Assembly: GCA_022749755.1 (NCBI GenBank)
Contig: CM040441.1
Coordinates: 10,541,475-10,605,474, forward strand
Reading direction: 5' to 3'
Length of the DNA: 64,000 nt
From: Azadirachta indica
Taxonomy: Eukaryota > Streptophyta > Magnoliopsida > Sapindales > Meliaceae
The position numbers and the translations under genes were made by a program. The notes under the pieces are model-generated. The model was not told the origin of the DNA. It searched no databases and saw only the letters and a program-made list of their open reading frames with translations. Of this stretch, positions 6,773 through 46,008 are shown one piece after another (the stretch's first letter is position 1; the number at the start of each line of letters is the position of its first letter).

Positions 6773-7016
6773 GCGGAGGAATTCTTAAAAGAACGCAGTA
6801 TGAATTCATATATGCGCCAACGACAATTTTTAACACGCTAATGCACTTACTATAAGAATCATAGGAAGCCGTTCTCAATTCCCATCCTACCATTTCTTCT
6901 TTGTTTCTCTTTTCGCCGCATACATTATCGATTCCTTTGCTTTAGTCAACAAAATCTGAAGTTTTTTCTTTTCTTAAGCGGCAACTTTCGTTTGGTTAGT
7001 GTCAAAAACACTAAAT

Positions 7017-25316: not shown

Positions 25317-25416
25317 NNNNNNNNNNNNNNNNNNNNNNNNNNNNNNNNNNNNNNNNNNNNNNNNNNNNNNNNNNNNNNNNNNNNNNNNNNNNNNNNNNNN
25401 NNNNNNNNNNNNNNNN
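25317..25416. other. Assembly gap (100 N)
   Basis: Exactly 100 N, the conventional placeholder for a gap of unknown size. The sequence resumes inside LINE copy A, about 65 bases beyond the expected 5' end, judged by alignment with copy B (AACATAGAAATCAC at 25417 equals 28041). Confidence 0.99.
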
Positions 25417-27940
25417 AACATAGAAATCACTTTTCCGGCAACGTTTCCGGCGAGTACAATCTCACCTCCTGCGCCAAAACATTCCTCTCTTGCCGATCTA
25501 CGTTTTGAGGTATGATTCGCATAATTTGAAGCTAAATTTGGGCCGAATTAATTTGAAATTCGGCTACTATTCATCCAATAGTAATCCGAATTTGATTTGA
25601 TCTCCTTGGCTAGTTTTCTTCGTCCTCGACCTATTATTTTGAAATATGTTAATGTTGGGGCATTTTGGAAACGTTTAAATGCCTTTGGTTGTGATTTTTC
25701 GGGTTTTTTCCGGAAATTTCGAACTTGCTACAATGAATTTCATAAAGCTACAGTAATTTCGTTCCTGCTACAGTATCATTAATTTCTACAGTAATCGTTT
25801 AAGCTACAGTATCGGATTAACAGTATTGGGCTATTGTTCACAGTGTTGGATCAACAGTACTACAGTATTGGGTTAACAGTGCTACAGTTTTGGGTTAACA
25901 GTTGCTACAGTGTTCGGTTAACAGTGCATAGCCATTACTATTTCTACAGTGAAATATGCTACAGTGACTCCGCGAGTTTAGAATATTTCTTGCATCATCA
26001 TGCCCACTCCGGGCAGTGACGGGGGTCGGTAGCCGCCGCCGCCTCTGCCGAACTTTGATACGGACTTTCCGCCACTATCGTCTATGCAACGACCCCCTAC
26101 TACAAACTCTCGACCGTGCAAATCTTTTTTGAATGCCGTCTCCGACTCTCAGGTTTCCAAATCTACCATTCCGCTCAAGCCAATCTCGCTCCATAGAGGA
26201 GAGCCAGCAGTCCTCTTCACAAAAGAGGAAATTCAGACTTTGGCAGCCCCTTTCAAGCTATCATTGGTCGGAAAATTTTCGTTTGGTCGGCCCACAATGC
26301 CAATCATTCGAAAATTTTTTACTTCACTCGGACTCAAAGGGCAGTGCCATGTATCTTTACTAGACCAACGCCATATCCTGATCAGGTTGCAACTCGAGGA
26401 AGATTACACCAGGATTTGGCTACGGCAGATATGGTATGTCAGCGGAAAATCTATGCGAATTTTCAAATGGTCCACCACATTTCGTTGCTCTGAGGAATCT
26501 CCTATTGTACCGATATGGGTATCCTTGCCCTTTCTTCCAGTCCACTTTATGTTGTGCAGGGATGCCCTTTTCTCTATAGCAGCCGCCATCGGCAAGCCTC
26601 TCCGTATAGATCAGGCGACAGCTTCGCTTAACCGACCCTCGGTCGCCAGAGTGCTCATAGAGTATGATATTTCTCAACCTTTGATACAGAGACTTTGGAT
26701 TGGCGAGGGCGACGACGGATTCTGGCAGGATATCATATTTGAGAGAGTTCCGCAATATTGTGGAGCATGCAAACATTTGGGACACTCTCGGGACGAGTGT
26801 TATATTGCCAGACCAGAACTACGAGTTGCGTCCAAGTCTAACCAATCAGTTTTCACGCAGACTCGAGAGAAGCAGGGGCAGCTAATAACGGATGATAAAG
26901 GAACACAGTCGATGGGGATTACCAAGTCTCAATACATTGTCAGAGCCGATCATAGGGGTCATTCGAGGACAGATACAATGGCAGAATCTAGCGAGAGACT
27001 TACACCGATTCAGGACCCATCAATTCAGCATGCCCCACTTGATGAGAGTAGAGACACCACAAGCGGACAGGAACAGTCAATGACAGAGCCGACTCACCTG
27101 ATAGGTAGTGAGGAGGCCGACATTGAGCATGAGACTCGAGATACCACAGACGGTCAAGATCCAACCATGCAACCACCTACAGAGGCAATAACCATAGAGA
27201 GAGTCAACATAGAGGCCAAGATCATTACAGAAACACCTCAGGAGACTATCACCACAGAGAGCGCTGTCTCATTACTAGAGGACACCACTCATGCGACACC
27301 TCTAGCAGTGGGACTAACAGAGAGGGTAGATGAGATAGTAGAGACTACTCATGTGACACCACTGGTTGCCCCAGTCAGAGCAACTACTCAAGAGCAATAT
27401 GCAATGGGTAGGCGCATTCCAGACCCAAATAACCCTAATGTGGTTACAGTGGAATTTTTACCGCCGATTGTTCCTGTTTATAGATCAGAAGATTATATCA
27501 CTGAGGGGACAGTCGATGAGGAGGAGCTCGCATGTGAGCTTAACACAGAGGATACTCGTATACCTACAGTCAGCCCGATAGTTCGTCAGAACACGAGCCG
27601 AGTTGGCAGAAGCATTCGGGCCGAGGATTTAGAGCCCAGTGACGACGATATGCACGACGACTACTATGGATTTCCAGACGATTTTCATGTGGATAACTCT
27701 CATCAGCGTGTTAGGAGATCATTTCGTATTCGTAGTCGTAGACGTAGGTATTAAACTTTTATTATCATTTAATTGTTTTCAGCAACTTATTGTATTTTTC
27801 ATTGTATTTTTCATTATCTCCGAAGGTAAGGTTTTATGTCCCCCTTCAGTATTGTACTTTCAGATATTTTCATTAATGAACAGATAGGGGTCCGGCCTAA
27901 CCCCCCACCATTTGGTGGCTTTTAATAAAAAAAAAAAAAA
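25417..27940 (+). mobile_element. Telomeric LINE family 1, copy A (ORF1-only)
   Basis: CTACAGT-rich 5' UTR (25417-25999, first ~65 bases lost in the gap), one ORF1, a ~140-base 3' UTR, the tail GTCCGGCCTAACCCCCCACC with hairpin CCACC-ATTT-GGTGG, and poly(A) to 27940, followed at once by (CCCTAAA)n. There is no endonuclease or RT ORF. Estimated full length is 2.59 kb, almost equal to copies C (2564 bp) and G (2565 bp), so the short form is a lineage and not a random deletion. It is the best preserved family-1 copy. Confidence 0.85.
26000..27754 (+). pseudogene. ORF1 of family 1 copy A (DUF4283-like / CCHC), one nonsense codon
   Basis: The frame starts at ATG 26000 (MPTPGSDGG, as in copies B and C) and is open for 584 codons except for TAG at codon 11, where copies C and G have CAG. 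From Met 29 (26084) it is open to the stop. Numbering from Met 29: DUF4283-like RNA-binding domain at about 48-195 (FKLSLVGKFSFGRP, then IWVSLPFLPVHF and GKPLRID); zinc knuckle C226-x2-C229-x4-H234-x4-C239; acidic/Thr-rich linker at 255-500; Arg-rich C-terminus ending RIRSRRRRY. This is the ORF1 layout of plant L1-type LINEs (RNA-binding, Gag-like). Low-complexity linker repeats contain many TTxE motifs. Confidence 0.85.
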
Positions 27941-27975
27941 CCCTAAACCCTAAACCCTAAACACTAACAATTTTT
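27941..27975. repeat. Telomere-type spacer between copies A and B
   Basis: About four CCCTAAA-like units (the last degenerate), then a T-run, before the CCCGCACTGC start of copy B. The junction with the poly(A) of copy A reads AAACCCTAAACCC. Confidence 0.9.
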
Positions 27976-29727
27976 CCCGCACTGCTACAGTACATATTTT
28001 CTACAGTAACAATTTCTCTCAAATGCTACAGTAACGTCCAAACATAGAAATCACTTTTCCGGCCACGTTTCCGGCGAGTGCAATCTCACCTACTGCGCCA
28101 AAACATTCCTCTCTCGCCGATCTACGTTTTGAGGTATGATTTGCATAATTTCATGCTAAATTTGGGCCGAATCAAGCATTTGAAATTTGGTTACTATTCA
28201 TCCAATAGTAATCCGAATTTGATTTGATCTCCTTGGCTAGTTTTCTTCGTCCTCGACCGATTATTTTGAAATATGTTGATGTTGGGGCTTTTTGGAAACG
28301 TTTAGATGCCTTTGGTTGTGATTTTTAGGGTTTTTTCCTGAAATTTCGAACTTGCTACAGTGAATTTCATAAAGCTACAGTAATTTCGTTCCTGCTACAG
28401 TGCGTTTGATCTCTACAGTGATTGTTTGTGCACAGTATCATTAATTTCTACAGTAATCGTTTAAGCTACAGTATCGGATCAACAGTATTGGGCTATTGTT
28501 AACAGTGTTGGATCAACAGTACTACAGTTTTGGGTTAGCAGTACTACAGTTTTGGGTTAACAGTTACTACAGTGTTCGGTTAACAGTGCATAGCCGTTAC
28601 TATTTGTACAGTGGAAAATGCTACAGTGATTCCTCGAGTTTAGAATATTTCTTGCATCATCATGCCCACTCCGGGCAGTGACGGTGGTCGGCCGCCGCCG
28701 CCGCCTCCACCGAACTTTGATACGGACTTTCCGCCACTATCGTCTATGCAACGACCCTCTACTGCAAGCTCTCGACCGTGCAAATCTTTTTTGGATGCCG
28801 TCTCCGACTCTCAGGGTTCCAAATCTACCATTCCACTCAAGCCAATCTCGCTCCACAGAGGAGAGCCAGCAGTCCTCTTCACAAAAGAGGAAATTCAGAC
28901 TTTGGCAGCCCCTTTCAAGCTATCATTGGTCGGAAAATTTTCGTTTGGTCGGCCGACAATGCCAATCATTCGAAAATTTTTTACTTCACTCGGACTCAAA
29001 GGGCAGTGCCATGTATCTTTACTAGACCAACGCCATATCCTGATCAGGTTGCAACTCGAGGAAGATTACACCAGGATTTGGCTACGGCAGATATGGTATG
29101 TCAGCGGAAAATCTATGCGAATTTTCAAATGGTCCACCACATTTCGTTGCTCTGAGGAATCTCCTATTGTACCGATATGGGTATCCTTGCCCTTTCTTGC
29201 AGTCCACTTTATGTTGTGCAGGAATGCCCTTTTCTCTATAGCAGCCGCCATCGGCAAGCCTCTCCGTATAGATCAGGCGACGGCTTTGCTTAACCGACCC
29301 TCGGTCGCCAGAGTGCTCATAGAGTATGATATTTCTCAACCTTAGATACAGAGACTTTGGATTGGCGAAGGCGACGACGGATTCTGGCAGGATATCATAT
29401 TTGAGAGAGTTCCGCCATATTGTGGAGCATGCAAACATTTGGGACACTCTCGGGACGAGTGTTATATTGCTAGACCAGAACTACGAGTTGCGTCCAAGTC
29501 TAACCAATCAGTTTTCACGCAGACTCGAGAGAAGTAGGGGCAGCTAATAACGGATGATAAAGGAACACAGTCGATGGGGATTACCAAGTCTCAATACATT
29601 GTCAGAGCCGATCATAGGGGTCAATCGAGGACAGATACAATGGCAGAATCTAGCGAGAGACTTACACCGATTCATAGGGGTCCGGCCTAACCCCCCACCA
29701 TTTGGTGGCTTTTAATAAAAAAAAAAA
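27976..29727 (+). mobile_element. Telomeric LINE family 1, copy B (internally deleted)
   Basis: Complete 5' end CCCGCACTGCTACAGTA, 5' UTR with about 13 CTACAGT motifs, 5' 60% of ORF1, then an abrupt jump near 29673 from ORF1 (ACCGATTCA) into the terminal tail (TAGGGGTCCGG), hairpin and poly(A). About 0.85 kb is missing relative to copies A, C and G. The poly(A) is followed by CCCTAAA. Confidence 0.88.
28662..29680 (+). pseudogene. ORF1 fragment of copy B
   Basis: ATG 28662 (MPTPGSDGG), Pro-rich N-terminus, intact DUF4283-like part; nonsense TAG at about 29344 (after EYDISQP). The frame then continues through a good knuckle (CGACKHLGHSRDEC) to a second TAG at about 29535, where copy A has CAG. 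The rest is lost by the internal deletion. The second stop is shared with copy C. Confidence 0.85.
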
Positions 29728-30058
29728 CCCTAAACCCTAAACCCTAAACCCTAAAACCCTAAACCCTAAACCCTAAACCCTTAGCCCTAAAACCCTGAGC
29801 CCTAAAACCCTGAGCCCTCAAACCCTGAGCCCTGAACCCTGAACCCTGAACCCTGAGCCCTGAGCCCTGAGCCCTGAACCCTGAGCCCTGAGCCCTGAGC
29901 CCTGAGCCCTAAACCCTAAACCCTAAACCCTAAAACCCTAAAACCCTAAAACCTAAACCCTGAACCCTATACCCTAAAACTCTAAAAAACCCTAAAAAAC
30001 TCTAAACCCTAAACACTAAGCCTAAACCCCAAAAACCCTAAACCCTTTAACCCTTTAA
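29728..30058. repeat. Degenerate telomere array with CCCTGAG/CCCTGAA variants
   Basis: Starts as good CCCTAAA, then about 100 bases (29790-29920) of CCCTGAG and CCCTGAA heptamers, then CCCTAAA/CCCTAAAA again. Plus-strand polarity is the C-rich strand. Confidence 0.9.
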
Positions 30059-30358
30059 CCCTACGTAAATAGACAAGTTAAGGGCTTCCATGACAATGAG
30101 GTCCTTCTTGCATGGGCTTGGGCTTGCTTTGATGATAGGGGTAGGCTTCTTGTGTTTTGGCCCTTCTGTGGGCTGGAATCGAGGAAAGCAGGCGTGACAG
30201 GCCCAAGTCTGAATTTGTAGGACTTTCTTTGATGGTTCATGGTTGCGGGTGTTCTGTTAATCCGCACAGGACCGGGTAGGCCGAGGGTTAGAAGGACGCC
30301 TTAACGCCTTCTCCTGTGAGTTGCCTTTCTGAGGCTAACCCGTCATACCCCTGAATCC
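30059..30358. other. 300-bp non-telomeric island inside the telomere array
   Basis: GC-balanced unique-looking sequence between two telomere-repeat tracts (starts CTACGTAAATAGACAAG, ends near CCCGTCATACCCCTG). It has no similarity to the LINE families and no recognisable protein or RNA. Probably a captured fragment or filler DNA. Confidence 0.6.
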
Positions 30359-30700
30359 CAAAACCCGAAACTCTAAAACCTTAAACCCTAAACCCCAAAC
30401 CCTAAAATCCTAAACCCTAAACCGTAAAACCCTAAACCCTAAAACCCTAAACCCCTAAACCCCAAACCCCAAACCCTAAAATCCTAAACCCTAAAACCCT
30501 AAACTCTAAAACCGTAAACCCTAAAACTTTAAACCCTAAACCCTAAACCTTTCTCCAACCCTAAACCCTAAACTCTAAACCCTGAACCATGAACCCGAAA
30601 CCCTAAACCCCAAACCCAAAACCCGAAACCCTAAAAACCCCAAACCCGAAACCCTAAACCTCAAACCCTAAACCCTAAACCAAACCCGAAATCATTTTTT
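30359..30700. repeat. Degenerate telomere-like array before copy C
   Basis: CCCTAAA mixed with CCCCAAA, CCCGAAA and CCCTAAAA; contains a CCTTTCTCC interruption (about 30548) also seen at 47684-47715. Ends in a T-run at the start of copy C. Confidence 0.88.
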
Positions 30701-33264
30701 CCCGTACTGCTACAGTACCCATTTGCTACAGTAGCATTTTCTCTCAAAATGCTACAATAACGTCCAAACATAGAACTCAAGTTTCCGGCCACGTTTCCGG
30801 CGAGTGCAATCTCACCTCCTACGCCAAAACATTCCTCTCTTGCCGATCTACGTTTTAAGGTATGATTTGCATCATTTCAAGCTAAATTTGGGTCGAATCA
30901 AGTATTTGAAATTTAGTTATTATTCATCCAATAGTAATCTGAATTTGATTTGATCTCCTTGACTAGTTTTCTTCGTCCTCGACCGATTATTTTGAAATAT
31001 GTTGATGTTGGGGACTTTTATAAACATTTATATGCCTTCGATTGTGATTTTTCTGGTTTTTTTTGGAAATTTCGAACTTGCTACAGTGAATTTCCTAAAG
31101 CTACAGTAATTTTTTATCTCTACAATGATTGTTTGTGCACAGTATCATTGATTTCTACAGTAATTGTTTAAGTTACAGTATCAAATCAACAGTATTGGCT
31201 ATTGTTAACAGTATTGGATCAACAGTGCTACAGTATTGGGTTAACAGTGCATAACCGTTACTATTTCTACAGTGAATTATGCTACAGTGACTCCGCTAGT
31301 TTAGAATATTTCTTGCGCCATCATGCCCACTCCGGGCAGTGACGGTGGCCAGCCGCTGCCTCCGCCAAACTTTGATACGGACTTTCCGCCACTTCCGTCT
31401 ATGCAACGACCTCCTACTACAAACTCTCAACCGTGCAAATCTTTTTTGGATGCCGTCTCCGACTCTCAGGGTTCCAAATCTACCATTCCACTCAAGCCAA
31501 TCTCGCTCCATAGAGGAGACCCAGCAGTCCTCTTCATAAAAGAGGAAATTCAGACTTTGGCAGCCCCTTTCAAGCTATCATTGGTCGGAAAATTTTTATT
31601 GGTCGGCCCACAATGCCAATCATTCGAAAATTTTTTACTTCACTCGGACTCAAAGGGCAGTGCCATGTATCCCTACTACACTAATGCCATATCCTGATCA
31701 GGTTGCAACTCGAGGAATAATACACTAGGATTTGGCTACGGCAGATATGGTATGTCAACGGAAAATCTATGCAAATTTTCAAATGGTCTACGACATTTCG
31801 TTGCTCTGAGGAATCTCCTATTGTACCGATATGGGTATCCTTGCCCTTTCTTGCAGTCCACTTTATGTTGTGCAGGAATGACCTTTTCTCTATAGCAGCC
31901 GCCATCGACAAGCCTCTCCGTATAGATCAGGCGACGGCTTCGCTTAACCGACCCTCGGTCGATAGAGTGCTCGTAGAGTATGATATTTCTCAACCTTTGA
32001 TACAGAGACTTTGGATTAGCGAGGGCGACGACGGATTCTGGCAGGATATCATATTGGAGAGAGTTCCGCCATATTGTGGAGCATGCAAACATTTGGGACA
32101 CTCTCGGGACGAGTGTTATATTGCTAGACCAGAACTACGAGTTGCGTCCAAGTCTAACCAATCAGTTTTCACGCAGACTCGAGAGAAGTAGGGGCAGCTA
32201 ATAACGGATGATAAAGGAACACAGTCGATGGGGATTACCAAGTCTCAATACATTGTCAGAGCCGATCATAGGGGTCAATCGAGGACAGATACAATGGCAG
32301 AATCTAGCGAGAGACTTACACCGATTCAGGACCCATCAGTTCAGCATGCCTCACTTGAGGAGAGTAGAGACACCTAGGCAGACAGGAACAGTCAATGACA
32401 GAGCCGACTCACTTGAAGGCAGTAGGCAGTGAGGAGCCCAACATTGAGCATGAGACTCGAGATACCACAGACGGTCAAGATCCAACCATGGAACCACCTA
32501 TAGAGGCAGTAACCATAGAGAGAGTCAACATAGAGGCTAAGATCATTACAGAGACACCTCAGGAGACCATCACCACAGAGAGCGCCGTCTCATTACTAGA
32601 GGACACCACTCATGCAACACCTCTAACAGTGGCACTAACAGAGAGGGTAGACGAGATAGTAGAGACTACTCAGGTGACACCACTGGTTGTCCCAGTCAAA
32701 GCAACTACTCAAGAGCAATATACAATGGGTAGGCGTATTCCAGACTCAAATAACCCTAATGTGGTTACAGTGGAATTTTTACCGTCGATTGTTCCTGTTT
32801 ATAGATCAGAGGATTATATCACTGAAGGGACAGTCGATGAGGATGAGCTCGCATGTGAGTTTAACACTGAGGCTACTCGTATACATATATAGAGCCTGAG
32901 AGTTCGTTAAAACACGAGTCGAGTTGGCAGAAGCATCCGAGCCGAGGATTTAGAGCGTAGTGACCACAATATGCATGACGACTACTATGGATTTCCAGAC
33001 GATTTTCATGCGATTAACTCTCATCAGCGTGTTAGGAGATCATTTTGTATTCGCAGTCGCAGACGTAGGTATTAAACTTTTCTTATCATTTGATTGTTTT
33101 TCAACTACTTTTTGTACTTTTCATTGCATTTTTCATTATCCCTGAAGGTAAGATTTTATGTCCCCTTTCAGTATTGTACTTTCAGATATTTACATTAGTG
33201 AACAAGTAGGGGTCCGGCCTAACCACCCACCATTTGGTGGCTTTTAATAAAAAAAAAAAAAAAA
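30701..33264 (+). mobile_element. Telomeric LINE family 1, copy C (ORF1-only, 2564 bp)
   Basis: Full length: 5' end CCCGTACTGCTACAGTA, CTACAGT-rich 5' UTR, decayed ORF1, 3' UTR, tail with hairpin CCACC-ATTT-GGTGG, poly(A) ending 33264, then CCGTAAACCCTAAG. Within one base of copy G in length. Confidence 0.88.
31323..33075 (+). pseudogene. ORF1 of copy C, multiply disrupted
   Basis: ATG 31323 (MPTPGSDGG). A frameshift near 31590 removes the FGRP context, stops follow about 31700, TAG at 32187-32189 after the knuckle (shared with copy B), and further breaks near 32377 and 32890. DUF4283 residues, knuckle CGACKHLGHSRDEC and the Arg-rich C-terminus are recognisable along 31.3-33.08 kb. Non-functional. 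Confidence 0.85.
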
Positions 33265-33316
33265 CCGTAAACCCTAAGCCCTAAACCCTAAAACCCTAAA
33301 CCCTAAACCCTTTTCT
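33265..33316. repeat. Telomere-type spacer between copies C and D
   Basis: Six CCCTAAA-like units, then CCCTTTTCT at the start of copy D. Confidence 0.9.
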
Positions 33317-33759
33317 CCCGCACTGCTACAGTACCAATTTGCTACAGTAGTTTTTTCTCTCAACTGCTACAGTACTTTGCTATAGTACCCGAAGACCTAA
33401 ATTCAATTTCCGGTGACTTTTCCGGCAAGTGAATGCACACCTCCGCCACCAAAATAATCCTCATCCTCCGATCTACTCTCTTAGCCACCCTTTCCTTTTA
33501 CTTACCTTCTATTTGAAATCTAATTTCCTGTAAACTTTCGGGTCACTATTCCCCAAAAGATAATTTCTAATTTTAGGCCTATTTCCATGATTTCGGTTGG
33601 CAAATATTGAGGCTGTGATGTTGTTTAAGCATTTAGAGTGATTGATTTTGATTTTTAGTGGTTTTTTAGGACTATATCTCAATTTTTCGCTTTTGCTACA
33701 GTACCTATTCTTCAAACTACAGTATCGTGTTCTTCAAGCTACAGTCACTTTGATCTGAA

Positions 33760-34695
33760 GAGTCTCCTATAGTCCCAATATGGATCTCACTACCATACCT
33801 TCCAGTTCACTTTATGCATTGTAGACAGGCTCTCCTCTCCATCACTTCAGCCATCAGCAAACCCTTACGAATTGATCAAGTAACAGCTTCTCTCAATAGG
33901 CCCTCAATTGCCAGAGTACTCATAGAATTCGACATTTCACAAGCATTGCCCAAAAGACTTTGGATCGGAGAGGGTGAGACAGGCTTTTGGCAGGATATTA
34001 TCTTCGAGAAAGTTCCCCAATATTGTGGAGATTGTAGACATTTGGGGCACTCCTCCGATGCATGTTTCATCACACAACCAGAATTGAGAGCTCCCTCTAA
34101 ATTGATTCAAAGAAAGGAAAAAGCTAAAGAACAAGTTAAGGAGAAAGAGAAGGAATTCGCGATCAAAAACGGAGTTCAACTAAAGGAGTCTACTGGAACT
34201 AAGTATGTTATCAAGGCTGATAATAGAGAAACTAATACAGGGGAAGTGACAGCAGTGGAAAATTGCAAGGAACTGTGAGAACAAACATATGACTTAGAGA
34301 GATGTGTGAACACCACACAAGAGACCAATATCACCGTACAAGATCAACATACTGTTTCTAACACGGATAATAAAGCATCTACCGTTACTAAAGAAGCCAC
34401 AGAAGCATCTAAAGAGAATAACACCCAAAATGCCTTGACTATAATTCCCCCAGAGACCTTGCAAGTAAGTTTTAATACAGAATCTTCAGATATACCTGAT
34501 TTGGAAGCCCCTTCTAGGTTAGTGGGCACCAGTTACACAACAGAGGATATAGATTTCAGGGATGATTTTGGAGATGAAGAGAGATTGCCATCAGATTCAG
34601 AAATTCCAAGCGCTAGAGTTGCAGTGGTTTCTCCTCGCAAGATTCGAAAATCTACCCGGAGGCTTCGTGCTACCTTCACATCATCATCATTATGA
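33760..34695 (+). pseudogene. ORF1 (C-terminal two-thirds) of copy D
   Basis: Encodes the second half of the DUF4283-like domain (GKPLRID-type region), a complete knuckle CGDCRHLGHSSDAC, a charged Lys/Glu stretch (RKEKAKEQVKEKEKEF), a Thr/Glu-rich linker and a basic tail (RKIRKSTRRLRAT). TGA at 34276-34278 replaces a CGA codon of copy H. The stop overlaps the ORF2 ATG by four bases (ATGA, 34692-34695). Confidence 0.82.
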
Positions 34696-35258
34696 TTAAT
34701 TTTCTTATTTGGAACATAAGGGGGATCATAAAATCTCCTGCAATGCGAAGATTGAGGAAATTAACTCAGATGCACAAATTATCACTTATTTGCATATTAG
34801 AGCCTTTTGTTGATTCAGCCAGATTAGATCACATGAGACTTCGACTTGGGATGGACTATGCAGTTTCTTCCAGTTCTGGGAAGATTTAGGTCTTTTGGTC
34901 TACCCCTTTCTCGGTTTAGGTCTTGCAAGATGCAGGGCAGGTGCTTCATTGTAGGGTTTGTCATTCTTTCTTCCCTGACCCTATTTATATTTCTTTTGTT
35001 ATGCTAGCTACTCTGCTTCTTTAAGGGTTGGTTTATGGGATGCACTTGCATCTTTTGCCAGAGATAGAGATATGGATGACCCTTGGATGATTGGGGGAGA
35101 TTTCAATGTTGTACAGGCTCAATCCGAGGATCTTGAGGGAAATCCCCAGCCACAAACAGCCATTGATGCTTTCAATCTAGTGCTTATGGAGTGTGGGTTA
35201 AAGGATGCAAGTTTTACTAGGAGTCCTTTTACTTGGACTAATGGCAGGACAAGACGCG
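34692..35258 (+). pseudogene. ORF2 N-terminus of copy D (AP-endonuclease fragment)
   Basis: Starts MINFLIWNIRG; LEP (LICILEPF) and GGDFNVV follow, the N, E and D/N motifs of APE-type LINE endonucleases. Unlike copy H it keeps the D of GGDFN. A stop near 34888 and a frameshift before 35072 break it, and it is cut off at 35258. Confidence 0.82.
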
Positions 35259-36283
35259 CATGCACTTTCCGTTGATATACCATACATGTCTGCTCTATAG
35301 TCGAGAGTAATCCTCTTCTAATTGCAACATAATAAGTATATGTCGTTGATCCAGAAGAGACACTTGAAAATTACCCTTCAGTTCGAGCCTGGTGAAGAAT
35401 TGGCGGATAATGGACATATGGGGGCGGCCAAATGAAAATTTTCCTAGCAAGGAAAGCTTGAAAGGTTTGGCCATGAGTTGAACCTGCTTTGTTGTGAAAC
35501 AAACGGCCGGTTCACCCTTGTATAATGTTGCAGATCTAGTGGAAATATCGGGTTTAGCATCTTGAGTACCCAATGCTACAACCAAAAATAATTTGCATGG
35601 CCGAACTTGAGTGTTGAACTTTTGTTGATGCGATGGAAGAGGTGGAAAGTCCACAATGGAGTCTGATGGGGTTGGCGATTGATCGCCATCATCGTTCGGA
35701 GCGGGCATGAATGCGTTGGAAACTCTCAAAACTGTTTCAGTGTAGTTCGGTTATTGTTCAAATAGTATCTAACACTAATGTAGCAATACTGTGCAAACAG
35801 TTACTGCAGCGATTAAGGGTACTGTAGTAACATGTATTGTAGAGATCAAAATCACTGTAACTTGAAGAACACGACACTGTAACTTGAAGAATAGGTACTG
35901 TAGGAAAATCAAAAAATTGAGATCTAGTACTAAAAAACCACTAAAAATCAAAATCAATCACTCCAAATGCTTGAACAACATCACAGCCTCAATATTTGCC
36001 AACCGGAATCATGGAAATAGGCCTAAAATTGGAAATTATCTTTCGGGGAATAGTGACCCAAAAGTTTACAAGAAATTGGATTTCAAATAGAAAGTAAGTA
36101 AAAGGGAAGGGTGGCTAAGAGAGTAGATAGGGGGATGAGGATTATTTTGGTGGCGGAGGTGTGCATTCACTTGCTGGAAAAGTCACCGGAAATGAATTTA
36201 GGTCTTCGGGTACTGTAGTAAAGTACTGTAGCAGTTGAGAGGAAAAACTACTGTAGCAAATTGGGACTGTAGTAATGCGGGAG
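35259..36283 (-). mobile_element. Inverted family-2 fragment: 5' UTR and ORF1 N-terminus
   Basis: Reverse complement of the family-2 5' region: element 5' end (CTCCCGCAT) at about 36283, CTACAGT-rich leader, then ORF1 from ATG 35708 (MPAPNDDGD) to about 35259. The break (CATGCGCG in ORF1) lies only about 30 bases before the point where ORF1 resumes in copy D, so the two pieces are nearly complementary in content. Confidence 0.82.
35295..35708 (-). pseudogene. ORF1 N-terminal fragment, family 2 (inverted)
   Basis: Starts MPAPNDDGDQ, homologous to MPTPGSDGG of family 1; contains DFPPLPSHQ, RPCK and the first half of the DUF4283-like domain (KPFKLSLLGKFSFGRP, SLLDQRHILI) up to LEEDYSRL. This fixes the family-2 ORF1 start codon, which is lost in copy H. 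Confidence 0.82.
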
Positions 36284-36383
36284 AAAATGGTTTGTTTTAG
36301 GGTTTAGGGTTTAGGGTTTTTAGGGTTTAGGGTTTTTACGATTTAGGGTTTAGGGTTTAGGATTTAGGGTTTAAGGTTTAGTG
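36284..36383 (-). repeat. Inverted telomere-type spacer (TTTAGGG on plus strand)
   Basis: The only tract in the window where the plus strand reads TTTAGGG. It lies between the two inverted LINE fragments, so the whole block 35259-36880 was turned over together with its telomeric spacer. Confidence 0.88.
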
Positions 36384-36880
36384 TTTTTTTTTTTTAATTA
36401 AAAGCCAACAAATGGTAGGGGTTTAGGCCGGACCCCTACCTGTTCATTAATGTAAATATCTGAAAGTACAATGCTGAAGGGGGACATCAAATCTTACCTT
36501 CAGAGATAATTAAAAATGCAATGAAAAATACAAAAAGTAGCTGAAAAACAATCAAATGATAATAAAAGTTTAATACCCACGTCTGCGACTGCGAATACGA
36601 AATGATCTCCTAGCGCGTTGATGAGAGTTAACCACATGAAAATCGTCTGGATATCCATAGTAGTCGTCGTGTATATCGTAGTCACTACGCTCTAAATCCT
36701 CAGCCCGGATGCTTCTACCAACTCGACTCGTGTTCTGACGAACTATCAGGTTCAATGCAGGTATACGAGTATCCTCAGTGTTAAGCTCACATGCGAGCTC
36801 ATCCCCATCGACTGTCCCCTCAGTGATATAATTCTCTGATCTATAAATAGGAACAATCGGCGATAAAAATTCCACTGAAT
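36384..36880 (-). mobile_element. Telomeric LINE family 1, fragment E (inverted 3' end)
   Basis: Minus-strand 3' part of a family-1 element: ORF1 C-terminus, 3' UTR, tail GTAGGGGTCCGGCCTAAAC with a mutated hairpin (CTACC-ATTT-GTTGG), and poly(A) (poly(T) 36384-36395 on plus), then telomere repeats. Its internal edge at 36880 joins a plus-strand tail. Confidence 0.83.
36570..36875 (-). pseudogene. ORF1 C-terminal fragment, family 1 (fragment E)
   Basis: Encodes the acidic linker end and the Arg-rich tail RRSFRIRSRRRGY of family 1, about 100 residues, without a genuine start. Confidence 0.8.
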
Positions 36881-36936
36881 AGGTAGGGGTCCGGCCTAAC
36901 CCCCCACCATTTGGTGGCTTTTAATTAAAAAAAAAA
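36881..36936 (+). mobile_element. Isolated family-1 3' tail with hairpin and poly(A)
   Basis: Only the last ~55 bases of the element (GTAGGGGTCCGGCCTAAC, CCACC-ATTT-GGTGG, poly(A)) in plus orientation, joined on its left to the inverted ORF1 fragment. Followed by degenerate CCCTAAA. Confidence 0.85.
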
Positions 36937-37176
36937 TCGTAAACAGTAAATCCTAAAACCTTAAACCCTAAACCCTAAATCCTAAACCCTAAAACCCTAA
37001 AACCTTAAACCCTAAAACCCTAAAACCCCAACCCTAAAACCCTAAACCCTAAACCCTAAGCCCTAAAACCCTAAACCATAAACCCTAAACCCTAAACCTC
37101 AAACCCCAAACCCCAAACCCCAAACCTCAAACCTCAAACCCTAAACCCCAAACTCTCAACCAAAAAACTATTTTTT
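36937..37176. repeat. Degenerate telomere-like array before copy G
   Basis: CCCTAAA, CCCTAAAA, CCCCAAA and CCTCAAA units ending in AACTATTTTTT at the start of copy G. Confidence 0.9.
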
Positions 37177-39741
37177 CCCGCACTGCTACAGTACCTATTT
37201 CCTACACTAGCATTTTCTCTGAAAATGCTACAGTAACGTCCAAACATAGAACTCACTTTTTCAGCCACGTTTCCGGCGAGTGTAATCTCACCTCCCGCGC
37301 CAAAACATTTCTCTCTCGCCGATCTACGTTTTCAGGTATGATTTGCATCATTTCAAGCTAAATTTGGGCCGAATCAAGTATTTCAAATTTAGATACTATT
37401 CATCCAATAGTAATCCGAATTTGATTTGATCTCCTTGGCTAGTTTTCTTCGTTCTCGATCGATTATTTTGAAATATGTTGATGTTGGGGCATTTTGGAAA
37501 CATTTGGATGCCTTTGGTTGTGATTTTTCGTGGTTTTTTCGGTAAATTTCGAACTTGCTACATTTTATTTCTAAAACTACAGTAATTTCGATCTTGCTAC
37601 AGTGAGTTTGATCTTTATAGTGATTGTTTGTGCACAATATCATTGATTTCTACAGTAATTGTTTAAGCTACAGTTCAACAGTATTGGGCTATTGTTAACA
37701 GTATTGCTTCAACAGTTGCTATATTATTGCTACAGTATTGGGTTAACAAATGCTACAGTTTTGGTTAACAGTGCATAACCATTACTATTTTTTGGGCCAT
37801 CATGCTCACTCCGGACAGTGACAGTGGCCAGCCGCTGCCTCCGCCGAACTTTGATACGGACTTTCCGCCACTTCCGTCTATGCAACGACCCCTTACTACA
37901 AACTCTCGACCGAACGAATCTTTTTTGAATGCCGTCTCCAACTCTCAGGGTTCTAAATTTACCATTCCGCTCAATCGAATCTCGCTCCACAGAGGAGAGC
38001 CAGCAGTCCTCTTCACAAAAGAGGAAATTCAGACTTTAGCAGTCCCTTTCAAGCTATCATTGGTCGGAAAATTTTCGTTTGGTCAGCCCACAATGCCAAT
38101 CATTCGAAAATTTTTTACTTCATTCGGACTCAAAAAGCAGTGCTATGTTTCTCTACTAGACCAACGCCATATCCTGATCAAGTTGCAACTCGAGAAAGAT
38201 TACACCAGGATTTGGCTATGGCAGATATGGTATGTCAGCGGAAAATCTATGCGAATTTTCAAATGGTCCATCACATTTCGTTGCTCTGAGGAATCTCCTG
38301 TTGTACCGATATGGGTATCCTTGCCCTTTCTTCCAGTCCACTTTAGGTTGTGCAGGAATGCCCTTTTCTCTATAGCAGCCTCCATCGGCAAGCCTCTCCG
38401 TATAGATCAAGCGACGGCTTCGCTTAACCGACCCTTGATCGCTAGAGTGCTCGTAAAGTATGATATTTCTCAACCTTTGATACAGAGACTTTGGATTGGC
38501 GAGGGCGACGACGGATTCTAGCGGGATATCATATTGGAGAGAGTTCCGCAATATTGTGGAGCATGCAGACACTTGGGACACTCTCGGGAGGAGTGTTATA
38601 TTGCCAAACCAGAACTACGAGTTGCGTCCAAGTCTAGCCACTCAATTTTCACGCAGACTCGAGAAAAGCAGGGGCAGATAATAACGGATGATAAAGGAAC
38701 ACAGTCGATGGGGATTACCAAGCCCCAATACATTGCCAGAGCCGATCACAGGGGTCATTCGAGGACAGATACAACGGCAGAATCTAGGGAGAGGCTTACA
38801 CCGATTCAAGACCCATCAGTTCAACATGCCTCACTTGATGAGAGTAGAGACACCACAGGTGGACAGGAACAGTCAATGACAGAGCCGACTCACCTGAAGG
38901 CAGTAGGCAGTGAGGAGGCCGATATTGAGCATGAGACTCGAGATACCACAGACGGTCAAGATCCAACCATGGAACCACTTACAGAGGCAGTAGCCATAGA
39001 GAGAGTCAACATAGAGGCCAAGATCATTACAGAGACACCTCAGGAGACCATCACCACAAAGAGCGCCGTCTAATTACTACAGGACACCACTCATGCGACA
39101 CCTCTAGCAGTGGCACTAATAGAGAGGGTAGACGAGATTGTAGAGACTACTCAGGTGACACCACTGGTTGCCCAGGTTAGAGCAACTACTCAAGAGCAAT
39201 ATGCAATGGGCAAGCGCATTCCAGACCCAAATAACCCTAATGTGGTTACAGTGGAATTTTTACCGCTGATTGTTCTTGTTTATAGATCAGAGGATTGTAT
39301 CACTGAGGGGACAGTCGATGAGGATAAGCTCACATGTGAGCTTAACACTGAGGATACTCGTATACCTACATTAAGCCCGATAGTTCGTCACAACACGAGT
39401 CGAGTTGACAGAAGCATCCGGGCTGAGGATTTAGAGCGTAGTGATGAGGATATGTACGACGACTATTATGGATTTTTAGGCGATTTTCATGTCGTTAACT
39501 CTCATCAGCGTGTTAGGAGATCATTTCGTATTCGCAATCGCACACGTAGGTATTAAACTTTTATTATCATTTAATTGTTTTTCAGCTACTTTTTGTACTT
39601 TTCCTTGCATTTTTCATTATCTCTGAAGGTAAGGTTTTATGCCCCCCTTCAATATTGTACTTTTATATATTTACATTAATGAACAAGTAGGGGTTCGGCC
39701 TGACCCCCCACCATTTGGTGGCTTTTAATAAAAAAAAAAAA
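37177..39741 (+). mobile_element. Telomeric LINE family 1, copy G (ORF1-only, 2565 bp)
   Basis: Full length: CCCGCACTGCTACAGTA 5' end, CTACAGT-rich leader, ORF1, 3' UTR, tail with hairpin CCACC-ATTT-GGTGG, poly(A) to 39741. Then only two to three telomere units separate it from copy H. Confidence 0.88.
37802..39556 (+). pseudogene. ORF1 of copy G, three nonsense codons
   Basis: ATG 37802 (MLTPDSDSGQ). Frame open apart from TAG at 38519-38521 (copies A-C have TGG), TAA near 39073 and one nearby. DUF4283-like domain, knuckle CGACRHLGHSREEC and Arg-rich tail are present. After the Ca-independent Thr/Glu-rich linker it ends at the same codon as copies A and C. Confidence 0.85.
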
Positions 39742-39767
39742 CCCTAAACTCTAAACCATTTTTTTCT
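39742..39767. repeat. Very short telomere-type spacer between copies G and H
   Basis: CCCTAAACTCTAAACC followed by a T-run. Two elements are separated by fewer than 30 bases of telomeric sequence. Confidence 0.88.
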
Positions 39768-40307
39768 CCCACACTGCTACAGTACCAATTTGCTACAGTA
39801 GTTTTTCTCTCAACTGCTATAGTACTTTGCTACAGTACCTGAAGACCTAAATTCATTTTCCGATGACTTTTCTGGCAAGTGAATACACACCTCCGTCACC
39901 AAAATAATCCTCATCCCTCGATCTACTCTCTTAGCCACCCTTCCTTTTTACTTACCTTCTATTTCAAACCCAACTTCCTGTAAACTTTTGGGTCACTATT
40001 CTCCAAAAGATAATTTCCAATTTTAGGTCTATTTCCATGATTCCAGTTGGCAAATATTGAGGCTGTGATGTTGTTCAAGCATTTGGAGTGATTGATTTTG
40101 ATTTTTAGTAGATTTTTTGGCCTAAATCTCAATTTTTTGACTTTGTTACAGTACCTGTTCTTCAACCTACAGTGTCGTCTTCTTCAAGTTATAGTACCCC
40201 TAATCGCTACAGTGACTATTTGTACAGTATTACTACAGTGATATTAGATACTATTTAAACAATAACCGAACTACAGTGAAACGGTTTTAAGGGTTTCCAA
40301 CACATTC

Positions 40308-41731
40308 ATCCCCGCTCCGGGCGATGATGGCGATCAACCGCCAACACCATCAGACTCCATTGTGGACTTTCCACCACTCCCATCGCATCAACAAAAGTTC
40401 AACACTCAAGTTCGGCCATGCAAATCATTCTTGGATATAACATCGGGTACTCAAGATGCTAAACCCACTATTTCCACTAGATCTGCAACATTATACAAGG
40501 TGAACTGGCCATTTGTTTCACAACAGAGGAGGTTCAACTCATGGCCCAACCTTTCAAGCTTTCCTTGGTAGGAAAATTTTCGTTTGGCTGCCTCGATATG
40601 TCCATTATCTGCTAATTCTTCACCAAGCTCGAACTGAAGGGTAATTTTCAAGTGTCTCTTCTGGATCAATGACATATGCTTATTATGTTGTAATTAGAAG
40701 AGGATTACTCTCAACTGTAGAGAAGACATGTATGGTATATCAGCGGAAAGTGCATGCGCGTGTTCAAATGGACAACCGATTTTCGCTGTTTTGAAAAGTC
40801 TCCTATAGTCCCAATATGGATCTCACTACCATACCTTCCAGTTCACTTTATGCATTGTAGACAGGCTCTCCTCTCCATCGCTTTAGCCATCGGCAAACCC
40901 TTACGAATTGATCAAACAACAGCCTCTCTTAGCAGGCCCTTAATTGCCAGAGTACTTATAGAATTCAACATTTCACAGCCATTGCCCAAAAGACTTTGGA
41001 TCGGTGAGGGTGACACAGGTTTCTGGCAGGATATTATCTTTGAGAACGTTCCCCAATAATGTGGAGATTGTAGACATTTGGGTCACTCCTCCGATGCATG
41101 TTTCATCACAAAACTAGAATTGAGAGCTCGCTCTAAATTGATTCAAAGAAAGGAAAAAGCTAAAGAACAAGTTAAAGAGAAAGAAAAAGAATTCGCGAAC
41201 AAAAACGGAGTTCAACTGAAGGAGTCTACTGGAACTAAGTATATTATCAAGGCTGATAATAGAGAAACTAATACAGAGGAAGTAACAGCAGTGGAAAATT
41301 ACAAGGAACCGCGAGAACAAACATATTCCTCAGAGAGATGTGTGAACACCACACAAGAGACCAATATCACCGTACAAGATCAACATACTGTTTCTAACAC
41401 GGATAATCAAGCACCTACCATTACTAAAGAAGCCACAGAAGCATCTAAAGAGGATAACACCCATAATGCCTTGACTATAATTCCCCCAGAGACTTTCCAA
41501 GTAAGTTTTAATACAGAATCTTCAAATATACCTGATTTGGAAGCCCCTTCTAAGTTAGTGGGTACTAGTTACACAACAGAAGATATAGACCCCAGGGATG
41601 ATTTTGGAGATGAAGAGAGATTGCCATCAGATTCAAAAATTCCAAGCGCCAGAGTCGTAGTGGTTTCTCCTCACAAGATTCGAAAATCTACCCGGAGGCT
41701 TCGTGCTACCTCCACATCATCATCATTATGA
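40308..41731 (+). pseudogene. ORF1 of copy H (start codon lost)
   Basis: The start, ATG in the inverted fragment D', is ATC here (40308). N-terminal DFPPLPSHQQ and RPCKSFL are followed by a frameshift near 40497 and another before 40754. The DUF4283-like domain continues 40754-41059; TAA replaces the Tyr of the PQYCGDC knuckle lead (about 41057). Then come the remaining knuckle residues, a Lys/Glu-rich stretch, a Thr-rich linker and the basic tail HKIRKSTRRLRAT. Stop and ORF2 start overlap as ATGA at 41728-41731. Confidence 0.84.
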
Positions 41732-44700
41732 TTAATTTCCTTATTTGGAACATTAGGGGGATCATAAAACCTCCTGCAATGCGAAGATTAAGGAAATTAA
41801 CTCAGATGCACAAATTATCACTTATTTGCATATTGGAGCCTTTTGTTGATTCAGCCAGATTAGAACACATGAGACTTCGGCTTGGGATGGACTATGCAGT
41901 TTCTTCCAGTTCTTGGAAGATTTGGGTCTTTTGGTCTACCCCTTTCTCGGTTCAGGTCTTGCAAGATGCAGGGCAGGTGCTTCATTGTAGGGTTTGCCAT
42001 TCTTTCTTCCCTTACCTTATTTATATTTCTTTTGTTTATGCTAGTTGCTCTGCTTCTTTGAGGGTTGGTTTATGAGATGCACTAGCATCTTTTGCCAGAG
42101 ATAGAGATATGGATGACCCATGGATGGTTGGGGGACATTTCAATGTTGTACAGGCTCAATCCGAGGTTCTTAGGGGAAATCCCCAGCCACAGAAAACCAT
42201 TGATGCTTTCAATCTAGTGCTTATGGAGTGTGGGTTAAAGGATGCAGGTTTTACTAGGAGTCTTTTTACTTGGACTAATAGCAGGACAAGGCAGCGTCTT
42301 GACAGGGTGGTGGCAAATCCCCATTGTGTGCAGGTTATTTTCCTGTTTTCAAGATTTCTCACCTGAACTGCACAGCTTGATATCACTCTCCCCTCTTGAT
42401 CTCGCTTGAAAAACGCATGACCAAAGGACCCTCCAGGTTTAGGTTTTTACATACTTGGCTACGACACCCAAATTTTCTTGATGTTATCAGACAGAGTTGA
42501 TCGGAACCAGTATCGGGCACAGGAATGGTTGGCTTTCAGCAGAAGCTTACTCGACTGAAGCTTTGTTTGAAGGCTTGGAACAGAGAAGTTTTTGGCAATG
42601 TCTTTCAGAAGGTTCGAGAGGCAGAGGAGGAGGTTACAGAGAGGGAGCGCATCTATGACCTGTCGGGCTCGACTCAGGATAGAGTTTTTTCTTCTAAGGC
42701 CAGGGCTCGATTACAGCATGCTTTGAGTTGCGAAGAGACTTCTTTGAGGCAAATCTCCAGTGTTAGATGGGTCCGTGAAGGGGATTCCAATACACAGTTC
42801 TTCCACGCCATGATTCGTAAAAAGTGGCAGTCTTCCTATATTCATAGGATTCAGGGAGCTGACTCAGCTTGGATTTCTGATCCTTCTGCTATTGCCGCCT
42901 CAACAGTTGATTACTATCAGGACCTTTTATTCGTGGGCGTCAGTCACTTCCAACAAAGAGATTTCAACTTCATTCCAACCTTGGTGACAAGCGAGGACGA
43001 TATGGACTTATGCAAGATGCCTGAATCAGATGAAATTAGAGAGGTGGTTTTTTCCATTGATCCAGACAGTGCCCCGGGATCAGACGGATTCTGTGGCAAA
43101 TTTCACCAGTCTTGTTGGGATATTATCAGAGATGATCTCCATGATGCTGTCATAGACCATTTCAGAGGGTCAGCTATGCCTCGGGGCTTTCAGAGTACTA
43201 TTTTGGTTCTCTTGCCTAAAAAGACTTCTCCGTCTACTTAGGCAGACTTTCGACCTATTAGTTTGTGTAATGTGAGCAATAAGATTCTGACGAAGATACT
43301 TGTATCTCGTTTATCGTCTTTATTGCCACGCATCATCTCGCCCTCTCAGAGTGGATTTGTTCCCGACCGAGTGATTCATGATAATATCTTACTAGCTCAG
43401 GAGTTAATGCATGATTTGAGCCGCCGCTCACGTGGAGGTAATGTTGTGCTGAAGCTCGACATGGCTAAGGCATATGATAGAATGTCTTGACCCTTTATCA
43501 TTCAGATGCTCAGGAGTTTTGGTTTCTCAGATCGGTGGATTTTCTTGATCAGAAAAGTAGTTATAGGACCTTGGTTTTCGGTAATGGTGAACGGGACTCT
43601 CCACAGTTTCTTCCAATCACAGGGTGGTCTCAGGTAGGGCAACCCTCTATCCCTTTGTTTGTTCATTATTGCTGCAGAGTTCTTATCCAGAGGATTGGAT
43701 GACTTGTATTCTAGGTACCCATCCATGGTTTATTGTACTACTGCCCCGCTAACCATCTAGCATTTGAGTTTTACAGATGATATCGTGATTTTTGCTAATG
43801 GAGATAGGGCCAATCTACAGAATGTTATGGATTTCCTTCATCACTACAAGAATGTTTCAAGTCAGAGGATCAGCCAGACTAAGTGCAGTTTCTATATAGC
43901 GAGATCTTTATCGACCTCTAGACAGACTATTATCCACTCAGTCACAGCCTTCCATCAGAGGCAATTACCGATGATATACCTCGGGTGCCCTATCTACATG
44001 AGGAATCTTAAGTCTCATTATTTTGATGATTTGATTCAGAGAATCAGAGATCGGATTTCAAAATGGGCGAATCGTTTACTTTCTTTCAGAGGTAAGTTGG
44101 TTCTGATCAGACACGTGCTCTCTTCTATGCCTATGCGCTTGTTCCATTTTCTTCGACCTCTGGCAGAGATTTTCTATCAGACGGAACGACTTCTTACCCG
44201 TTTTCTTTGGGGAGACACCGCACACATAAGACAGATTCATTGGTGTAAATGGTCTACAGTTTGTTTCCCTTTGGAGGAGGGTGGACTAGGCATTCCCTCC
44301 TTTGATGACACGGCTGAGGCGTGTGAGTTGAAATTATGGTGGCGATTTCAATCTCAGCAATCCTTGTGGGCTTCATTTATGAAGTCCAAATATTGTAGGT
44401 CAGACCAGCCGAGCACGGTTTTATTTCGATATCCTGCATCCCCTATTTAGAGAAGTCTTTGCACTATACGGATCACCGCTGAGCCCTCAGTGAGATGGTT
44501 AATGAGATCTGGTGATTGCAGTTTCTGGTATGATTGTTGGATAGGATCTTGCCCACTTTATTTCTACAACCCAAGGGCAGTTACTATGGCCACAGTTTCG
44601 GCCTATTAGACGGGCACAGTATGGGATAAAGGGAAGCGATCAGCTGTGCTACCGGCTTCTATTATCGACCAGATTCTGACCATTCTATCTCTATTAATGG

Positions 44701-45835
44701 TCCAGATGTGATTAGATGGAGCTTATCATTAGATTAGGATTTCTCTCTGTGCTCTGCATGGGAGCTCATTCGCTGTCCTATGCCTACAGACGAGGTTTAC
44801 ACTTGTATTTGGCAGCGACACATCCCGTCTCAGATATTCTTTTTCTTATGGAGACTTATCAGAGGCTATTTGGCCACAGATGATGCCTTATGTTCGAGAG
44901 GTTTCCATATGGTTTCGAGATGCATTTGTCATAGCTCAATAGAGACTATTAGACACCTATTTCTTGATTTTCCTCTGTCTCAACAAATGTGGAGACACTT
45001 TAGCTCATTGATCGGACTTCGACGATCCTCATTTTCGTCGCCTCGGGCTCTTTTAATTCACTGGACGAGATCAGCTACGTCAAAGACGCATTTCAAAGGC
45101 ATTCTCGCCTGCATCATCTTTCGGTAGATTTGGAAGACGCGGAACGCCTCACGCTTCGATTTCACTGTCTTTCAACCATCTGCAGTCATTTATCAGACCA
45201 TTGGCTACCTTCGAACAATTGGCCTTGCAATTGGATATAGGTCAACACAGGTCAGAGGCATCAAGGAAATAGATTTTATTAGTGACTTGAGGACTGTTCT
45301 TCCTAGACTGAGGCCGATTAGATTGATTTCGTGGGAGCGACAGGGACAAGGAACTGTAAAGCTTAACGTGGATGGCTGTTCCAAAGGTAATTCTGGCATG
45401 GCAGCTATTGGAGGGATCTTTCGAGATAGTAAGGGTCAGGACTTACACGCCTATGCTCATTTCCTGGGCAATAGGACTATTCTTCATGCAGAGTTGACAG
45501 CTATTTATGAGGGGCTTAAGATAGCTTTGGAGTTGGGATATTCACACTTAGTGGTAGAGTCAGATTCAACCACAGCGATTTCTTGGATTTCGTCGCGGGA
45601 CACTGGACGATGGGATTATGCATATATTCTGGCACGGATCCGCCTTCTTTGCAGGTCTTTGTCCCTTCATATCAGACACATACTTCGAGAGGCGAACCAT
45701 ACAGCGGATTTCATAGCCAACTGGGCTTGCACGCACCACCTTCGCAACAGATTCTACAGCAGACATGACCTTCCGACCGGCATTACTAGCATCATTATTA
45801 TAGACTCTCAGCAACTACCTTATATCAGGAGATGA
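41728..45835 (+). pseudogene. ORF2 of copy H: AP endonuclease - RT - zf-RVT - RNase H
   Basis: Endonuclease 41728 to about 42420: WNIRG, LEP, GGHFNVV (catalytic D changed to H), TWTN, RLDRV and a degenerate SDH region. RT about 43030-43830: DSAPGSDGF, RPISLCN, QSGFVPDR, LDMAKAYDR, GLRQGNPLSP and FTDDIVIF (active-site DD). zf-RVT-type region 44780-45020 (RCICHSS...HLFLDFP). RNase H 45340-45720 with LNVDGCSKGN, HAELTAIYEGL, ESDST and REANHTADFIANW, all catalytic residues present. Stops interrupt near 42073, 42365, 43240, 43488, 43760, 44448 and 45125; there is a frameshift about 43676. This is an L1-type plant LINE with the plant-specific RNase H. Confidence 0.9.
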
Positions 45836-46008
45836 CGCAATCTTTCATATGTATTTTATTTTTTCCTTTTATTGTATCATTCTCTTAATCTGGAGGTTTG
45901 GTATATGTCCCCCTCTAGCAATATATTTCACGTGATTTTGATCTATTTTACAGGTAGGGGTCCGGCATAACCCTCCACCAATCGGTGGTTTATAATTTAA
46001 AAAAAAAA
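45836..46008 (+). other. Family-2 3' UTR and poly(A)
   Basis: T-rich UTR containing TATATGTCCCCCTC, alike in position and sequence to TTATGTCCCCCTTC in family 1; then the shared tail and hairpin. The common 3' end is the likely recognition signal for the LINE RT. Confidence 0.7.

Follow-up and report, generated by a model that had tools for sequence, protein, structure and literature searches.

Among the retrotransposons described at chromosome ends, HeT-A and TART of Drosophila form head-to-tail arrays with their 3' ends inward, the poly(A) of TRAS1 of Bombyx mori runs into the C-rich strand of the repeat, and the fungal MoTeR belongs to the CRE clade and carries a restriction-like endonuclease. 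A 2023 survey of telomeric retrotransposons covers, in the part of its text available, insects, Giardia, Chlorella, a fungus and a lizard (PMC10088271). For plants, the accessible portion of a 2025 review states that no similar telomeric retrotransposon is known (PMC12477314), excerpts of two telomere reviews name retrotransposon telomeres in insects only (PMC7046594, PMC6356271), and a wheat subtelomere study, in its excerpted text, mentions long interspersed nuclear elements (LINEs) among genes, not in telomeric repeats (PMC2756281). No case of a telomere-repeat-resident LINE in a flowering plant appears in the literature searched, which consisted partly of excerpts and left most subscription papers and preprints outside. 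The locus described here lies in neem, Azadirachta indica (assembly of 280.8 Mb in 21 contigs, with scaffolds called C1, C2, etc.), within a window of 64,000 nucleotides, C2:10541475-10605474. At positions 25417-46004 (coordinates without a scaffold name are window positions), L1-type LINEs follow each other on the plus strand with CCCTAAA-type DNA between them, and both the poly(A) junction of TRAS1 and the 3'-inward, head-to-tail arrangement of HeT-A/TART recur. "Telomeric" refers throughout to repeats of the CCCTAAA/TTTAGGG type. These copies very probably represent an L1-clade, TRAS-like LINE family that inserts into telomeric repeats, together with a partner possessing only open reading frame 1 (ORF1), on a chromosome-end contig.

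Two sister LINE types make up the block: the A-type (~2.57 kb, ORF1 only) and the H-type (6.25 kb, ORF1 plus endonuclease, reverse transcriptase (RT) and RNase H). Copies A, C and G are ~2.57-kb plus-strand copies with a mutual identity of 87-89%. The window shows seven 3' ends, six on the plus strand (copies A, B, C, G and H and a stub) and one inverted; in each, poly(A) leads into CCCTAAA-type DNA, which is degenerate in the case of the stub. At the 5' side, the copies whose ends are visible (B, C, D, inverted E, G and H) share a common start, a T run followed by CCCGCACTGCTACAG with variants, beside CCCTAAA-like DNA; the 5' end of copy A is lost to a gap. Both regularities had been claimed in an earlier note on this DNA, which does not mention the gap, and are borne out. 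Its five full or nearly full plus-strand copies hold for A, C, G and H, but not for B, which carries an internal deletion; its spacing of 24 bp to about 1 kb of CCCTAAA-type DNA is right in kind, with spacers running from ~16 bp (before H) to ~0.96 kb (B-C, including ~280 bp of non-telomeric DNA). The A-type 3' region contains the hairpin-like CCACCATTTGGTGG and then poly(A), and copy H resembles the A-type at both ends. In the ~0.6-kb 5' untranslated region (UTR), the motif CTACAGT occurs nine times in A, eight times each in C and G and seven times in H, compared with once in window 1-25000. Tandem repeats of ~22 bp are also seen in the 5'UTRs, at 25840-25927 and 28502-28587. Together, these 5'UTR repeats (~22-bp tandem units plus CTACAGT, 7-9 per element, on one strand) are perhaps promoter elements.

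The association with telomeric DNA extends across the genome. Searches with the A-type and H-type 3' ends give 40 and 39 matches, which correspond to 60 distinct places, and the 3' flanks of these places were taken from a 50-row junction table (45), by eye (2), by exact junction pattern (7) and by individual fetching (6). The 3' flank is telomeric or telomere-like at 59 of the 60 scored places, C4:17348404 being the exception. The earlier note had asked for a whole-assembly tabulation in which most copies would have telomeric flanks, and had named a majority in ordinary DNA as the outcome that would speak against it; the former was found, and its interpretation as a candidate plant telomeric retrotransposon system is supported. 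The junction table also includes five junctions beyond the 60 places: three on C2 that are telomeric and two on C4 that are not. The latter two have the flank of C4:17348404 and hence go back, with it, to a single old insertion that was duplicated. By the strict score, telomere coverage is at least 0.6 in 41 of its 50 family 3' flanks; six further rows fall below 0.6 but are telomere-like at the start (five with a short spacer before other element-derived sequence, one degenerate), and three score zero. As a chance control, 2000 random 53-mers were drawn from the starts of ten scaffolds; none reaches 0.6, and the maximum is 0.415. Furthermore, exact A10-CCCTAAACCC junctions occur 40 times in the 281-Mb genome, and 39 of them are, by position, 3' ends of this LINE family; the 40th, on C3, is unrelated to it. 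Nearly all copies therefore lie in telomeric repeats in one fixed orientation (59/60; 39/40), as is characteristic of TRAS and SART. These flanks and this orientation are observed directly for nearly all copies read, as are the domains and contig edges described below.

The coding capacity places the family in the L1 clade. The single ORF of the A-type copies is an ORF1 with DUF4283, and L084, an H-type sister copy on C12, contains DUF4283, Exo_endo_phos (1.1e-11), RVT_1 (5.7e-35), zf-RVT and RVT_3. Compared with solved structures, the RT matches best the human LINE-1 ORF2 protein (8sxt, 1.7e-45), ahead of an R2-type RT (1.9e-17); these domains and this best match identify the element as L1-type. 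The endonuclease piece has no match at 0.01 among sequences of solved structures. The domains and structure matches agree with what defines the L1 clade, namely an apurinic/apyrimidinic endonuclease (APE), an RT closest to L1, ORF1 plus ORF2 and a poly(A) 3' end. Judged from the L1 match, membership in the R1 clade of TRAS and SART appears unlikely. The RT region evolves under constraint, with a ratio of nonsynonymous to synonymous substitution rates (dN/dS) of 0.20-0.35 (six pairs), and ORF1 is open in two of the four H-type copies examined. An RT search of the genome yields 29 matches, down to 70% identity, of which 17 (16 copies, among them all those of at least 86% identity and an 80% copy on C1) have, by position, a telomeric or telomere-like 3' flank. 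The other 12 lie outside the 60 places: three on C4 at 81-82%, one on C14, four on C12 and four short pieces on C4. Two 3' flanks were read for the three C4 copies and are both ordinary DNA, the C14 match is cut off by satellite, and the one 5' flank read among the four C12 matches (70-74%) is weakly telomere-like (coverage 0.69 vs a shuffle maximum of 0.68).

At the junctions, 39 of the 50 table flanks start with CCC after the A run, although four of the seven possible repeat phases would look so. Of 27 rows of 5' ends, ten were set aside (seven matched the motif internally, two were non-telomeric copies on C4 and one was a copy truncated at its 5' end), leaving 17 true 5' ends beside telomere-like DNA, among which are two duplicates in a twin block on C2 and one end with only nine bases before a gap. 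AAACCA directly precedes the T run in nine of these 17, and the rest vary. The nick reported for the TRAS1 endonuclease, in the text available, falls within TT^AGG, at the T/A boundary (PMC7265360). In the proposed mechanism, the APE-type endonuclease of the neem ORF2 would nick the G-rich telomeric strand at GGGTTT^AGGG; the GGGTTT-3' end released in this way would pair with the poly(A) tail of the RNA and prime reverse transcription, and the resulting copy would read 5'-(CCCTAAA)n-element-poly(A)-(CCCTAAA)n, with its 3' end inward. The poly(A)-CCC junctions are as expected of such a primer, but the phases that look alike leave the nick site putative. The 2.57-kb ORF1-only form, which shares end form and target with the 6.25-kb autonomous form, would presumably be mobilised in trans by borrowing its RT, and the arrays would grow by new insertions plus local duplication and inversion. 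A copy at C4 6.54 Mb has lost its 3'UTR end and is joined straight to CCCTAAA, a structure that resembles the internal initiation reported for SART1 in the accessible part of the same source (PMC7265360).

The position of the arrays points to chromosome ends. At every one of the 14 outer edges seen, an N gap bounds the sequence on its terminal side, towards which the 3' end of the G strand is directed; the edges on C6, C9 and C10 were not reached by this survey. Eight are 100-N joins (window, C2:10509962, C4, C5, C7, C8, C12 and C14:9.615 Mb), with non-telomeric DNA beyond each, the pattern that would arise if scaffolding had misplaced chromosome ends, and six are longer N runs (C1, C2:0.23 Mb, C2:10.036 Mb, C11, C13 and C19). 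The window, C4 and C19 edges lie inside an element, the C11 N run lies ~2.6 kb outside the first RT match, and no LINE was found at the C14:9.615-Mb array. The scaffold ends themselves were considered as telomeres and rejected: only 2 of the 15 large scaffolds have telomere-like repeats at the right end (600 bp each), one of which (C3) is on the wrong strand, and the initial 10 kb of each of the 15, all N in two cases and mostly N in two more, shows no array. Such near-telomere-free ends are as expected if chromosome-end contigs were scaffolded inside. Based on contig edges, orientation and adjacent satellite, the window block is probably a misplaced or internally joined chromosome-end contig.

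The arrays could instead be interstitial, for example pericentromeric, telomere-like repeats, with the LINEs targeting CCCTAAA-like DNA there. The window does lie at 10.5 Mb within a 25.3-Mb scaffold, its inner array is degenerate (77% match), copies at C19 4.08 Mb, C7 1.3 Mb and C13 21.99 Mb reside in degenerate telomere-like DNA, N runs occur inside the C1 array, and at C14 21.496 Mb a short telomere tract, without a LINE, is bordered on either side by ordinary DNA. Nevertheless, the uniform terminal-side gaps, the non-telomeric DNA beyond all eight 100-N joins, the scaffold ends nearly without telomeres, the long near-pure telomere arrays outside the LINEs on C13 and C1, and the satellite on the inner side of the arrays on C7 and C9 render an interstitial origin unlikely.

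It is quite improbable that an ordinary L1 inserted at TTT/A anywhere and survived only in telomeric arrays through selection elsewhere. TTT/AGGG fits the usual L1 nick preference, and the C4 relative in ordinary DNA would suit such passive survival; however, 59 telomeric places out of 60 is an extreme outcome for it. Moreover, 39 of the 40 poly(A)-telomere junctions belong to one family, though LINEs constitute 1.08% of the neem genome according to the available text of the assembly report (PMC9069239), and hence other LINEs do not collect in telomere repeats.

Local duplication of copies is common. An inverted twin of the LINE-satellite block, at C2:10.487-10.510 Mb, has 98-99% identity to window 25417-64000 and lies ~56 kb from the window block, with two 100-N gaps between. 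The neem assembly has a heterozygosity of 0.896% in the accessible part of its report (PMC9069239), and the twin is possibly a second, unmerged haplotype of the same end, or a misjoin. At C12:14.597-14.617 Mb, 21 A-type 3' ends are spaced ~0.8-1.3 kb apart with telomere repeats between them, forming a tandem array at the outer edge, and the C6/C8 pair has a common 3' flank. When the flanks are grouped at 8% edit distance, the 50 junctions fall into 37 groups, 34 of them telomeric by the crude rule of at least two CTAAA; the remaining three comprise two on C4 and, to judge from the flanks displayed, one of CCCTTAAA type on C13. The 37 groups overstate independent events, since they split the tandem units of C12 as well as a duplicate pair on C2. 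The 3' end of copy A is 99% identical to a C7 copy and 98% to a C19 copy, compared with 90-92% to its neighbours C and G, so copies have moved between clusters; copy B, without the 3'-end comparison segment of A, is 94.5% like A elsewhere. One insertion plus segmental duplication, the other outcome against which the earlier note had warned, cannot explain the genome-wide flanks. That one or few insertions spread by segmental duplication and subtelomeric exchange without target specificity is very improbable: the twin, the C12 series, the C6/C8 flank and the overstated group count speak for it, but the poly(A) runs vary (8 to 26 bp in most table rows), three H-type copies (C11, C12 and C19) with the same 3'-end variant have different telomeric flanks, the C4 6.54-Mb copy stops within the 3'UTR directly at CCCTAAA, and older relatives on C1 (80% in RT), C13 and C19 likewise have telomere-like flanks.

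Several observations weigh against a TRAS-like family at neem chromosome ends. Relatives of 80-82% identity lie in ordinary AT-rich DNA on C4 (1.08, 17.17, 17.22 and 17.35 Mb); since three of their 3' flanks are alike, they derive from one old insertion that was duplicated. Two of the flanks are weak, at C12:5601705 (~20 bp telomere-like before another 5' end, coverage 0.56, equal to the shuffle maximum) and C7:1305437 (degenerate, 0.61 vs a shuffle maximum of 0.45), and one 3'-end search scored 40 of 60 candidates, so that weaker copies may have gone uncounted. As evidence for a fixed nick, the CCC start is weak, and a strict G-quadruplex motif is absent from both strands of A, C, G and H. 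Constraint on ORF1 is weak, with dN/dS of 0.40-0.87 in the A-type (six pairs) and 0.29-0.79 in the H-type (ten pairs). None of the four H-type copies examined (window H, L084, L085 and L086, the last with Ns) has an intact ORF2, and stops interrupt the A-type ORF1 of the window copies; therefore, present activity is unproven. At six of the 14 edges, the longer N runs may represent withheld sequence or sized gaps; two of five samples from within the C1 array contain N runs as well (the other three are near-pure CCCTAAA), and the satellite is also present away from known arrays. The telomere purity of the 3' flanks is not correlated with their distance from the outer edge (rho -0.07, p 0.69, n=36), and an age layering of the copies was accordingly rejected. 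A wider reading is offered tentatively, and may well not hold: a long-standing two-part telomeric system, in which an autonomous L1 and an ORF1-only dependent, alike in ends and target and both inserted at chromosome ends by priming from the G strand, would add to end length and end-to-end exchange alongside telomerase.

Features of the LINE block and its surroundings in the window
Feature	Position	Strand	Remarks
100-N gap, 5' of (outside) the LINE block	25317-25416		ordinary non-telomeric DNA to its left
Copy A, ORF1-only A-type, poly(A) included	25417-27940	+	5' end cut by the 100-N gap
Parts of copy A		+	5'UTR with CTACAGT repeats; ORF1 (DUF4283) 26000-27754 with early stop; 3'UTR; poly(A)
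CCCTAAA spacer A-B	27941-27970	+	
Copy B, A-type	27971-29727	+	3' part of ORF1 deleted internally
Spacer B-C	29728-30690	+	telomere-like array to 30063 and from 30349; non-telomeric ~280 bp (30064-30340) inside
Copy C, A-type, near full length	~30691-33259	+	
CCCTAAA spacer C-D	33260-33310	+	
Copy D, partial H-type	33311-35253	+	5' 435 bp plus ORF1/endonuclease stretch
Inverted segment	35251-36877	-	H-type 5' end (36287-35251), TTTAGGG array (36296-36386, ~92 bp), A-type 3' end (36877-36386)
Stub of A-type 3' end plus poly(A), then CCCTAAA-like array	36878-37168	+	stub 36878-36934
Copy G, full-length A-type	37169-39740	+	2572 bp
Short CCCTAAACTCTAAACC spacer G-H	39741-39756	+	
Copy H, autonomous-type LINE	39757-46004	+	6.25 kb; ORFs broken
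Pieces of copy H		+	ORF1 region from ~40266; endonuclease-like 41614-42363; RT 42501-44447; RNase H 45128-45832
Degenerate CCCTAAA array, inner edge of block	46005-47730	+	1.7 kb; repeat match 77% over 46006-47687
AT-rich satellite	47731-64000	+	~191-bp unit; also adjoins telomeric arrays on C7 and C9

Around the block, an open frame of 1038 amino acids at 6978-10094, ~15 kb left of the gap, resembles what we take to be a plant calcium-transporting ATPase, and an Rfam scan of the window at gathering scores gives no match. Elsewhere, DNA judged by eye to be plastid-like (C6:1024900-1025300) adjoins the C6 telomeric LINE cluster, and the small unplaced contigs C15 and C17 begin as (TAAACTT)n arrays with a 7-mer, telomere-sized unit.

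Animals, fungi, protists and one green alga are the reported hosts of telomere-associated retrotransposons. If neem, with its TTTAGGG telomere repeats, does harbour a LINE family confined almost entirely to them, flowering plants would join these hosts, and an L1-type element would join the retrotransposons concerned. One could then test how repeat specificity arises in an L1 endonuclease, and in what way such insertions are tolerated or exploited by plant telomeres. The arrays also expose probable misjoined chromosome ends in the reference assembly.

Compared with known systems, a TRAS/SART-like resident beside ordinary TTTAGGG repeats is a better parallel than telomere maintenance of the Drosophila type, and the family would follow a "safe haven" lifestyle without replacing telomerase. 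Like TRAS1 (R1 clade), the neem element is an APE-type LINE in telomeric repeats that coexists with simple repeats, and its presumed cleavage corresponds to the T/A nick on the G-rich strand reported for the TRAS1 endonuclease in the text available (PMC7265360); unlike TRAS1, it has an L1-type RT, a plant host, a TTTAGGG target and an ORF1-only partner family. HeT-A and TART (Jockey clade) similarly combine a Gag/ORF1-only element with an RT-bearing relative, but in neem the elements are separated, and bordered on the outside, by simple CCCTAAA arrays, and telomerase-type repeats are not replaced. The Exo_endo_phos endonuclease separates the neem LINE from MoTeR with its different endonuclease type. 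With MoTeR and FoTeR of fungi it shares the character of a telomere-associated non-LTR (long terminal repeat) element, as given in the accessible portions of two sources (PMC10088271, PMC12857005). Zepp of Chlorella vulgaris, likened here by description only, is a LINE accumulated in telomeric regions in the green lineage, as cited in the survey text available (PMC10088271), yet its host is a green alga, not a land plant. Ordinary plant L1 LINEs of Theobroma, Citrus and Melia have the same domains: the neem RT pieces share 50-64% amino-acid identity with Theobroma and Citrus proteins, and ORF1 shares 41-75%, over parts, with Melia and Citrus proteins, its nearest named relatives. To our knowledge, telomere targeting by these plant LINEs has been described in no report. 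The general kind of element is known; what is new is the flowering-plant host, the L1 type and the ORF1-only partner.

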